A stretch of 26,384 bases of DNA from a virus, in IMG/VR virus record IMGVR_UViG_3300005613_000357, positions 1-26,384 of that record, one strand, 5' to 3'. Positions 8,726 through 12,186 of the stretch are shown in pieces. Every line of letters starts with the position of its first letter. Position 1 is the first letter of the stretch. The notes under the pieces were generated by a model. That model saw only the letters and a list, made by a program, of their open reading frames with translations, made no database searches and was not told the DNA's origin. A program made the position numbers and the translations under genes.

Positions 8726-10090
8726 CTATCTAGTTTCTCTCCATTGCATAGCAACATAGATTTCGTTTGCGGTATTTGTGGTTAAGTTCTGAACAACCAC
8801 TGCAAAAATATTACTATCATCACTATCTATGTTTTGTGCAAGATATGATTTCTTTGCAGATGAAGGACTGAGATTAATATTACCAGATGCTTGCTTACCT
8901 GATGGATTATTTCCTGTTACATATCCAGTAAATTTTGAATATGCATTTGTTAGATTGAAGTTAGTGCCAACACCGATATTATACTGAACACCAGAGTAAT
9001 CATCATCAAAATCCACCCAAGTTCCCCCAGTAATGTTTGAACTATCTGGCATTCTATAAACATCAAACTTACAAGGTGCAGAAGTAGAAAGAAGTTCTAA
9101 ATCTGAAATACGAATTGTTGTTCTGTTTGGATATCCATTTATAGTTGGTTTGGCACGAATTGCCATTACACACTTAATGTGATTTGGAGCACTATTGGAA
9201 CCAGGAAGAGAAATAGCAGTTGTTACTCCAACTGAGAATTCAAAACCACTTTCTTCATATCCACCTTCACTCAATACAGTAGAACAAATCTGCTGCATTG
9301 ATGTAACACCAACAGCAGTGTCGGTGTTTCTTACTTCACAACGAATTGGAAGTGATGGTTGACTCCAATAGACATTTTCTTCAATATTAGAATGATTAAA
9401 TTCATGGCAATATACAAGACTTCCACCAATAACAAATCCACAACGAATTCTACCAACACCTAACCACTGAAAGTCTGTAGCAAATAATTGAGTTTTTGTA
9501 AAGTCAAGACTGATGCTGGAAATGCCAACACCGTTCATTGGATCTAAACTCCAATTAGATTGATTAACAACAGTATCTGATACAATACCAGAGACATAAT
9601 CTCTTCTTACCAAAGAAACTGTTCCATCACCTTCTTGTTGGACGAATACTCCATTTCTATCATCAAAGTATCCAGTTCTTTTAACAGTATTCTCCCTAAC
9701 ATCATTAAAGTTAAAACTGGAAAGTGCAAATTGTGATTTGCCTGGCATATAGTGATGATACATTCTGGATTGATGTATCACATAATCTGTAGAACCAATT
9801 CCAACTACAAGTGATGCTGCTGCTTTATTTGTAAGATATTCTACTGTTGAACCTACACCAATTTTTTTAGTGAGAATTTCTTCATTCAATCCATATTGAT
9901 GAGAGTAATCTGCAAGAGTGAATGGTTCTGATGTTCTTGATCTACCAAAAGCATCATATCCACCAGCACTTATACCTGTAGATACTCCACAATCCCCTAT
10001 GTTGCCATATCTATCGGCACACATAAAGACTTCATGAAGTGTTCTTTCTTGGTTTAGATAATCTTGTGTATTTTTATTCCACTGAGCCAT
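8726..10090 (-). CDS. Putative virion structural protein (FGR-SEP motif)
   Basis: 454 residues. The N-terminal ~65 residues carry DAFGRSRTSEPFTLADY (~46-62), a variant of a motif (DAFGR-R-SEP-TLFD) that I know from many marine phage and prophage virion proteins. The rest is strand-rich with many Gly, Asn, Ser and Thr, no long helices, and no signal or membrane segment. It contains scattered Cys (about nine), unusual for a phage tail protein here. The C-terminus ends in a conserved-looking strand, EIYVAMQWRET. A fibre, head or tail surface role is likely, but the exact location in the virion is not visible from sequence. It lies four bases after the 110-aa gene and just before the large terminase. 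Confidence 0.88.
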   Translation of the reverse strand: MAQWNKNTQDYLNQERTLHEVFMCADRYGNIGDCGVSTGISAGGYDAFGRSRTSEPFTLADYSHQYGLNEEILTKKIGVGSTVEYLTNKAAASLVVGIGSTDYVIHQSRMYHHYMPGKSQFALSSFNFNDVRENTVKRTGYFDDRNGVFVQQEGDGTVSLVRRDYVSGIVSDTVVNQSNWSLDPMNGVGISSISLDFTKTQLFATDFQWLGVGRIRCGFVIGGSLVYCHEFNHSNIEENVYWSQPSLPIRCEVRNTDTAVGVTSMQQICSTVLSEGGYEESGFEFSVGVTTAISLPGSNSAPNHIKCVMAIRAKPTINGYPNRTTIRISDLELLSTSAPCKFDVYRMPDSSNITGGTWVDFDDDYSGVQYNIGVGTNFNLTNAYSKFTGYVTGNNPSGKQASGNINLSPSSAKKSYLAQNIDSDDSNIFAVVVQNLTTNTANEIYVAMQWRETR

Positions 10091-10094
10091 AATT

Positions 10095-10427
10095 TTATAC
10101 CCACTCTAATTTTCCTGGATGATATCTTTTTACGTCTGCAATTTTGACAGTTGGTTTTGGTTCTATTGGATAAATTCTTTGAACGATTGCTCCAGGATAT
10201 TCATCTTGAAGTTGTTCTGCAAGTTCTTGATTTGTAGGAAGTCTTAGTGCTTTTTTGTGCTCTAACTTCATTCTATAGATGCTTCCCATCCAAACAACAT
10301 CAGCAAAATACTGCTCATCAAAATTTTCTACTTGTTCTTCGTTTTCAGAACCATTAACAATAAGAGTACCGTTAAAGTCGCCAGAGATATTTACTGACTC
10401 TGACATAAATTCTTGGAATGATTTCAT
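10095..10427 (-). CDS. Putative internal head protein with T4-like capsid-targeting N-terminus
   Basis: 110 residues starting MKSFQEFMSES. T4 internal proteins begin with a capsid-targeting sequence, MKTYQEFIAE (recalled), that gp21 removes after the Glu. The match here is close in residues, spacing and position, with E10 as the probable cut site. After cleavage the remainder has an acidic strand segment (~15-40), then a module at ~43-90 with W46, G48, Y51, K54 and YPGA at 77-80. The same module occurs near the C-terminus of the adjacent 585-aa protein. The start lies one base after that gene's stop. A packaged, co-injected protein is the most economical reading; a minor structural protein is the alternative. 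The function after entry is unknown. Confidence 0.85.
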   Translation of the reverse strand: MKSFQEFMSESVNISGDFNGTLIVNGSENEEQVENFDEQYFADVVWMGSIYRMKLEHKKALRLPTNQELAEQLQDEYPGAIVQRIYPIEPKPTVKIADVKRYHPGKLEWV

Positions 10428-10428
10428 T

Positions 10429-12186
10429 TTAGTTACAGTTCCAACGACGGAGTGCTTTGTTAATTCTGCTATCTGGATCTCTAGCAGTTTTGGATGAAGT
10501 AAGTTTTGACTTCATACCTTTCATACGACGACAGAATGACTTACGACGATCTGCTCTTTTACCCGTTGGTTTCTTTTCGGTTACAGCAGTTTGTAATTTT
10601 GAACCTGGGTTTTCTCTACGATATGCATCAACTGCTTTCTGACTTAATCCATCAGTTTTATCCTTGCGGTTTACTGATTGCCAGTCTTCAGTTTGTAAAA
10701 ATTGCTCTCCTGGTTTGATTTCAGAAACATTATATGCAAGAACTTTTGCTCCAGGATATACTTTATCAATCTGGTCTTGAATTTCTTTTCTGCTTGGTCT
10801 TGTTACCTGAGGGAAGAACATTTTAATTCCATAATACTTTCCTCTCCAAGTTAGAGTTACCATGATAATATTTCCAGTTTTAGCAGGAATCCTAACTGCT
10901 TCTTCTAAAGGACATTCTTCCATACCATGAATAGGACACTCTTTACCTTTTTTGGTGTGAATGCATTCTGCTTCTTCTTTTTTCACACAGCGATTATAAG
11001 TCTTTCCAAAAAGTTTCTGTGTCCCTTTCTTTTCATATCCTGGCCAGCACTTCTTTGCCTCTTCTACCTCTGTCTGCTCACTTTTAGTCCCCCAATTAGA
11101 TGCACCTGCTTTGCGACACTTTACAAGGGCACCTGAGGCATAGGCAGAAGGCCAAACTCTATAACGAGATTTTACTTTATGATAGCAAGCATCTTTCTTA
11201 CCGCTACCTTTTCCTTTAATATCTTCTTGCTCAACAATAATCTGGTCACCAACCTCAACGTTGTTTTCCTTAAACCATCCACGATTTACTTCCAGAGCAC
11301 TTAATACTTCCCCTTCAGAATAAACTGGATTTTGATCGTATGGTTCCAACTGCTTAATACTATCAACTATTCCTTCTTCGGTGATGAAAGCAATATCCAG
11401 AGGAATTTTGGTCTCTGACATATGGAATGACTTTTGTCCAACCTCATCAAAGATGAAATACATTCCACTGTTTTGATCAAGACTTTCTCTAAACATCAGT
11501 CCAAGATTAAAGTCCCTAATGTTGATTGGAATTTCAACATTTAAAGGTAAAGTTATAAATTCTACTACTTCCTTTACAGACTTTACTTTCATCTCGCCAC
11601 TATCGACATAATCAGCAGCAGAGTCGAGATAGTCTGCTGCTTTTGTGATTTTTGATTGAACCCATGCTTCAATATCGCCTTCGCCTTTTCCCATTTTCTT
11701 CTTCAATCTTCTAGCAGCATTCATAACTGTAGAAAGTTCAGAACGTGCCATTGAATACTCATGATCTCTTTCTTGTGCTTCGTTCATTTTCTTCTTTGGT
11801 TTATCTGTTGAAACATAAGTTGGTTTTGCTGCACCAGTTTTTTGTTGTTGTCCGGGATCTGCTGCTTTTTTCCTTCTTGCTGCAGAAAGTCTTTCTGCTT
11901 TAGTCATACTTGCTCTTTTTGCTGATGAGACACATTTAGGAGTTCCTTCTCCGGGTTCATCACTAGCACAGGTTCCTCCTGTAACTACATTTACCCAACC
12001 AGATTTTCCATCCTTAGATTTTGATGATTTAAACCATTTATGAAGAGTTCCTTCGTCAACAGAAGCACCGTTTTCTTTACGAAGCATTCCTTCAGGATCA
12101 ACCATAAATCCTGCTGGAATGGGTCTACACTCCTTATTTGTATAGCAGTAATATTGTCCTGCAGGGCAGCGTCCGTTCTTTTTCAT
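10429..12186 (-). CDS. Mosaic Cys/basic protein with a DUF192 domain
   Basis: 585 residues built of separate modules. Residues ~7-22 are Cys-rich; ~50-110 hold KWFKSSKSKDGKSGWVNVV and CVSSAKRASMTKAERLSAARRKKAAD, strongly basic and, as I recall, named as a DUF in cyanophage annotation. Residues ~145-200 form a helical pair (AWVQSKITKAADYLDSAADY). Residues ~212-318 are a DUF192 domain (GLMFRESL, SFHMSETKIPLDIAFI, ALEVNRGWF). ~332-368 reads CYHKVKSRYRVWPSAYASGA; ~379-402 CWPGYEKKGT; ~405-425 holds four Cys and two His. ~443-492 is the YPGA module shared with the next gene, and the C-terminus (SFCRRMKGMKS to ALRRWNC) is another basic Cys module. It overlaps the 51-aa gene by ATGA. Nucleic-acid contact is likely for the basic modules; the function is unknown. 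Confidence 0.9.
   Translation of the reverse strand: MKKNGRCPAGQYYCYTNKECRPIPAGFMVDPEGMLRKENGASVDEGTLHKWFKSSKSKDGKSGWVNVVTGGTCASDEPGEGTPKCVSSAKRASMTKAERLSAARRKKAADPGQQQKTGAAKPTYVSTDKPKKKMNEAQERDHEYSMARSELSTVMNAARRLKKKMGKGEGDIEAWVQSKITKAADYLDSAADYVDSGEMKVKSVKEVVEFITLPLNVEIPINIRDFNLGLMFRESLDQNSGMYFIFDEVGQKSFHMSETKIPLDIAFITEEGIVDSIKQLEPYDQNPVYSEGEVLSALEVNRGWFKENNVEVGDQIIVEQEDIKGKGSGKKDACYHKVKSRYRVWPSAYASGALVKCRKAGASNWGTKSEQTEVEEAKKCWPGYEKKGTQKLFGKTYNRCVKKEEAECIHTKKGKECPIHGMEECPLEEAVRIPAKTGNIIMVTLTWRGKYYGIKMFFPQVTRPSRKEIQDQIDKVYPGAKVLAYNVSEIKPGEQFLQTEDWQSVNRKDKTDGLSQKAVDAYRRENPGSKLQTAVTEKKPTGKRADRRKSFCRRMKGMKSKLTSSKTARDPDSRINKALRRWNCN

Follow-up and report, generated by a model that had tools for sequence, protein, structure and literature searches.

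A probable T4-type capsid-targeting sequence on a small protein of a T4-like phage and on unrelated proteins of marine and freshwater T4-like phages

The capsid-targeting tag is a concept already known from T-even phages. For the T4 internal protein IPIII, the first ten residues are enough for packaging, mutagenesis of the T4 tag has assigned residues 4 and 7 to targeting and residues 8 and 10 to processing, and the cleavage consensus of the prohead protease gp21 lies after L/I-x-E (PMC9026906). Both IPII and IPIII begin with MKTYQEFIAEA and are cut between E and A; IPII has, in one T4 record, a removed signal peptide annotated at residues -10 to -1. No such tag in cyanophages was found in the searched literature, where only a T4 review names capsid targeting together with cyanophages. 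Studies of cyanophage particles detected NMNAT, SAM hydrolase and kinases, and their authors were unable to separate packaged from contaminant enzymes. What is new here is the extension of the tag to cyanophages, a wide list of its cargo, and its link to these contested virion enzymes.

The window, a stretch of 26,384 nucleotides from the viral record IMGVR_UViG_3300005613_000357, represents the late structural cluster in the genome of a marine T4-like phage. On its minus strand, an ORF with its ATG at 10427 and its stop at 10095 (10095–10427, stop codon included) encodes a 110-aa protein, MKSFQEFMSESVNISGDFNG..., which matches phrog_1742 over nearly its full length, including the tag (residues 1–104, E 4.5e-32), and in which a Pfam search found no domain. 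The ATG lies 1 nt beyond the stop of the upstream ORF (10429–12186). Homologues were detected by tblastn in 137 phage records, cyanophages throughout, and also in no fewer than 152 stretches of viral contigs; in Syn33 and S-SCSM1, the orthologous gene is likewise found in the corresponding gp16–gp17 interval. A spurious ORF is thereby ruled out, and we regard the gene as genuine because of its homologues in 137 records and their synteny. As the earlier note had stated, a gp21-type prohead protease, the expected processing enzyme, is encoded in the same late-gene cluster and on the same strand (783–1433, minus; Peptidase_S77, E 1.6e-35; phrog_207). The cluster also contains a gp22-type prohead core scaffold gene, incomplete at the window end (2–736, minus; T4_CASP, E 4.8e-50; phrog_237), with whose product the tag would be expected to dock. 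A 60-aa acidic protein encoded between a portal-type gene and gp21 (2027–2209, minus; phrog_14164, function not annotated) is possibly a gp67-type core protein, judging by its position and composition. The next gene downstream of the 110-aa gene encodes a 454-aa virion structural protein (8726–10090, minus; phrog_1645, E 9.7e-103).

The first ten residues of the 110-aa protein, MKSFQEFMSE (codons 1–10; 10398–10427, minus), are in all likelihood a genuine T4-type capsid-targeting sequence, given their conservation, their fit to the tag pattern, and their agreement with T4 residues 4, 7, 8, and 10. The T4 peptide had been named in the earlier note and described as matching almost position for position; MKTYQEFIAEA was verified in IPII and IPIII, and six of the ten residues are identical (M1, K2, Q5, E6, F7, E10) and the other four conservative. 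In an alignment of 63 phrog_1742 homologues, M1, K2, F7, and E10 never change, 62 sequences have F and one has Y at position 4, and positions 3, 5, 6, and 9 are variable. Position 8 is L in 29, I in 28, and M in 6 homologues, so that the window copy, with M, indeed departs from the usual I/L of 57 of the 63, and the T4 processing residue E10 is placed correctly for gp21, both as previously proposed. The constrained positions 4, 7, 8, and 10 are those assigned by T4 mutagenesis. Some members of this alignment were gathered using the tag pattern itself; the tag is also present in all members of a separate set gathered with six peptides, and every examined homologue whose N-terminus is intact conforms to MKx[FY]xxF[LIM]xE. 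As residues 11–24, with a conserved SVNIxGDFNGxL directly after the tag and before a variable linker, are conserved as strongly as residues 1–10, conservation within the family alone cannot single out the tag. A gp21 cut is predicted between E10 and S11, leaving a predicted mature protein of residues 11–110 that starts with SVNISGDFNG (10098–10397, minus). Serine after the cut has a precedent, since T4 gp24, with the N-terminus MAKINELLRE|S, matures by loss of its ten N-terminal residues. The cleavage site of the major capsid protein is also alike in S-SCSM1 (SGSFLAE-AP) and T4 (FGSFLTE-AE).

The AlphaFold2 model of the 110-aa protein consists of an isolated, short, low-confidence N-terminal helix (residues 4–9), disorder at residues 20–36, and a folded core of residues ~39–90 in strand-strand-helix-strand order with pLDDT mostly >80 (10158–10313, minus), the confident part covering residues ~40–87. 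This core is repeated at residues 440–483 of the 585-aa neighbour by profile comparison (hhalign, E 6.5e-5), whereas a direct BLASTP comparison of the two proteins was not significant, and it also appears in predicted structures of the S-SCSM1 and S-CAM9 virion/DUF6321 proteins. The neighbour (10429–12186, minus) combines DUF192 (E 3e-23), the copy of the cargo domain, and a C-terminal DUF6321, and its counterpart SSCSM1_29 is labelled as a virion protein; DUF192 is here part of a phage virion protein. Stand-alone DUF6321 proteins carry the tag in other contigs (L316, L345); thus, the domain of the neighbour is itself tagged cargo elsewhere. Searches of the mature domain against Pfam, PDB sequences, and PDB folds yielded nothing firm on its function. 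The best solved-structure match of the core is T7 Gp2 (Z 4.7, rmsd 2.6 over 50 residues; Foldseek E 0.84), which lies within 1 Z of ribosomal protein folds. With this tie and no sequence relation, a T7 Gp2-like function was dropped as a hint at most, and no function is claimed for the core. No T4 internal protein resembling the mature part was found either, and an anti-restriction role, raised in the earlier note by analogy with T4, would be a guess that does not follow from the tag.

A search for proteins starting with the tag, as had been suggested from the window sequence, was carried out with a DNA pattern for MKx[FY]xxF[hydrophobic]xE and with the reversed pattern as control. It gave 31 matches in 20 phage records (21 in 11 cyanophage-like records and 10 in nine named phages, one of them T4) and none for the control. 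In T4, the pattern picks out IPII, IPIII, and gp61.1. Among the records scanned, there was no match in the cyanopodovirus, nor in S-PM2 and HTVC008M of the named phages; the NMNAT of HTVC008M begins with MKTLKELLRKK and lacks the tag. NMNAT/cytidylyltransferase is the usual second tag carrier beside phrog_1742, and among 21 distinct NMNAT N-termini taken from viral contigs, 18 are strict matches and the remaining three have L at position 4. Viral contigs were scanned with fixed MKSF and MKTF codons, and families were clustered without the tag, which gave at least 102 gene starts in at least 40 families for MKSF and at least 115 gene starts in at least 65 families for MKTF. The scrambled pattern gave 47 gene starts, nearly all gp31/GroES-like, in two families among the matches listed; the real and scrambled patterns are compared here by family number, not by rate. 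When 68 unrelated cargo proteins were aligned, mean column identity was 6%, with invariant columns that are the pattern positions by construction, and conservation between different cargo families ends after the tag. In the 25 contigs selected by the scrambled pattern, all tag matches but two coincide with a scrambled-pattern site, and those two are on one contig, which has the strongest T4-type S77 protease match of the 25. As a marker, the S77 protease is weak (11 of 30 tagged contigs vs. 3 of 25 control contigs), probably because most contigs are fragments.

Recognised tagged cargo includes an ADP-ribosyltransferase (E 1e-23), an HD-domain protein (E 4e-16), an adenylate kinase (E 1e-38), a lysozyme (E 3e-7), and a GNAT protein (E 1e-7). 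On viral contigs, a tagged ADP-ribosyltransferase (L365:6037–6813), an HD_4 hydrolase (L326:1226–1783), and an adenylate kinase (L379:11382–11966) are candidate injected enzymes that would target nucleotides or host proteins. On another contig, tagged cargo genes stand in tandem: five adjacent and otherwise unrelated genes each start with MK[ST]FK[QS]FIxE (L221:5915–9422, minus). Two tagged proteins are also encoded by the vibriophage KVP40 (NC_005083; L121, L556): a 215-aa protein that appears methyltransferase-like by eye and has no Pfam match (39187–39834), and one of 372 aa whose match to PARP/ADP-ribosyltransferase is weak (156073 onward, E 1e-4). S-CRM01 (NC_015569) encodes a tagged GNAT-like protein of 131 aa (139045 onward; L122) and, two genes from a tagged cytidyltransferase, the small tagged g129 (101249–101485, MKKLDQFLTE), which resembles S-CREM2 gp13. 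In T4 itself, the 54-aa gp61.1 (NC_000866, 18966–19130, minus; L123) starts with MKTFKEFIKE|D, which makes it a candidate for an internal protein; we have not seen it described as such. A GroES/gp31-like family starting with MKTFNLFIVE (L337:150–179 and L321) also matches the pattern; it is probably a mimic of the tag and a warning for searches by pattern only.

Several of the tagged proteins have been found in purified virions. Mass spectrometry detected the NMNAT homologue in S-SM1, S-SCSM1, and S-CREM2 particles, where its tags are MKKFSAFLNE, MKSFLQFLKE, and MKNFSSFLTE, respectively. The S-CREM2 virion proteome comprises 52 of 219 gene products and, according to its authors, may include contaminants, leaving packaged vs. 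contaminant enzymes undecided. All three S-CREM2 genes matching a relaxed tag pattern (gp6, gp13, gp154) are virion-detected (Fisher p=0.013), gp6 being a SAM lyase (PF23780, E 2e-19). When GTG starts and Q2 are allowed, exactly five genes match and all five are detected, with a p-value of 6.5e-4 that is post hoc, as the pattern was widened only after the N-termini had been inspected; the additional two, both virion-detected, are gp14 (APH-like kinase, VKRFDAFLTE) and gp136 (MQTFSMFFSE). The tagged gp6, gp13, and gp14 (GTG start), all virion-detected, lie in one minus-strand group of S-CREM2 (OR473000.1, 3837–13331; L564). Also virion-detected is the Cas9-like gp12, whose annotated protein has LRFASFMAEA at residues 17–26, perhaps an embedded or mis-started tag. 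S-SCSM1 has two tagged genes, the detected NMNAT and SSCSM1_30, the orthologue of the 110-aa gene, which lacks the virion-protein label carried by the genes flanking it on both sides. The label is a near but inexact proxy for detection, as we counted ~48 virion-labelled genes in the S-SCSM1 record vs. 45 in the paper. SSCSM1_30 yields only two tryptic peptides of 7–30 residues in silico, which makes its non-detection weak evidence, and its new N-terminus after cleavage would escape a tryptic search. In S-SM1, whose proteome has been measured, no 110-aa gene is present at the corresponding place.

Together, we consider the 110-aa protein very probably a T4-type internal head protein, with the individual steps modelled on T4. 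The ten-residue tag would dock it in the prohead core and the phage's own gp21 would cut after E10, releasing a 100-aa mature protein in which a flexible linker joins a conserved strand to a small strand-strand-helix-strand domain. The mature protein would stay with the DNA and then be ejected into the cyanobacterium. As the sequences show, the same phage group places the tag on unrelated cargo, including NMNAT, SAM lyase, a kinase, and others, several of which published mass spectrometry has detected in virions. It is possible but rather unlikely that the protein enters the prohead via its tag to serve head assembly or DNA condensation instead of acting as an injected effector. Its gene is part of the late structural cluster, 1 nt past a virion-protein gene with the same domain, and the tag accounts solely for head entry. 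On the other hand, S-SM1 and similar cyanophages lack the gene at this place, indicating that cyanophage heads do not require it, and the tagged proteins of T4 are dispensable and injected.

That the N-terminus is merely part of the family fold and resembles T4 by coincidence seems very unlikely. The strong conservation of residues 11–24 would fit this explanation, and short motifs can be mimicked, as by the gp31/GroES-like start MKSPFYFIVE and by the one GroES-like family that matches the pattern. Yet dozens of unrelated proteins start with the tag and share no conservation beyond it, the scrambled pattern yields only two families among the matches listed, and the AlphaFold2 model sets the N-terminus apart from the core. 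A real tag that sends proteins uncleaved to the tail or baseplate is highly improbable; the cyanophage proteomes in the literature cover whole virions and give no position of the proteins within the particle, which would leave room for such a destination, but the fixed positions are the residues for head-core targeting and gp21 processing in T4, and the only tag matches away from the selection sites of the control contigs occur in the one contig with the strongest T4-type S77 protease match.

Besides the interpretation of the 110-aa protein as an internal head protein, our results suggest that the T4 capsid-targeting sequence probably serves as a general export tag of marine and freshwater T4-like phages for dozens of cargo families, among them NMNAT, SAM lyase, ADP-ribosyltransferases, GNAT, HD hydrolase, adenylate kinase, lysozyme, and many unknowns. 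The earlier note had envisaged a simple, recognisable export tag, an idea borne out more widely than proposed: with unrelated proteins carrying it, several of them in virions, it looks like a shared, searchable label for injected proteins. With its mechanism known from T4, the ten-residue tag offers both a reason and a test for the contested virion enzymes and, if this is true, would explain the presence of suspected contaminants in cyanophage particles. What a phage injects could then be read from its genome; for cyanophages, this would give a list of the proteins that enter the abundant photosynthetic cells of the sea at the onset of infection, and uncultured T4-like phages could be searched in the same way.

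Compared to known systems, the 110-aa protein is a full-length member of phrog_1742, a family previously without a proposed role. It shares the core domain with the WxGxxY...YPGAxV signature with the T4-GC119/DUF6321 neighbour (SSCSM1_29), which is much larger and has no capsid tag at its N-terminus. T4 gpAlt, an ADP-ribosyltransferase of the head core that is trimmed by gp21 and injected, has possible counterparts in the ADP-ribosyltransferase-like proteins among the tagged cargo of viral contigs, whereas the 110-aa protein lacks an ADP-ribosyltransferase signature. The T4 internal proteins differ in the unrelated sequence of their mature parts, in having A instead of S after the cut, and in lacking M8; moreover, the phage group studied here infects cyanobacteria and its gene lies in the gp16–gp17 interval, not at the T4 ip loci. 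Still, the 110-aa protein is small and non-core like IPII and IPIII, and it has in common with IPI, IPII, and IPIII a ten-residue N-terminal tag with fixed residues 4, 7, 8, and 10 and a cognate gp21.
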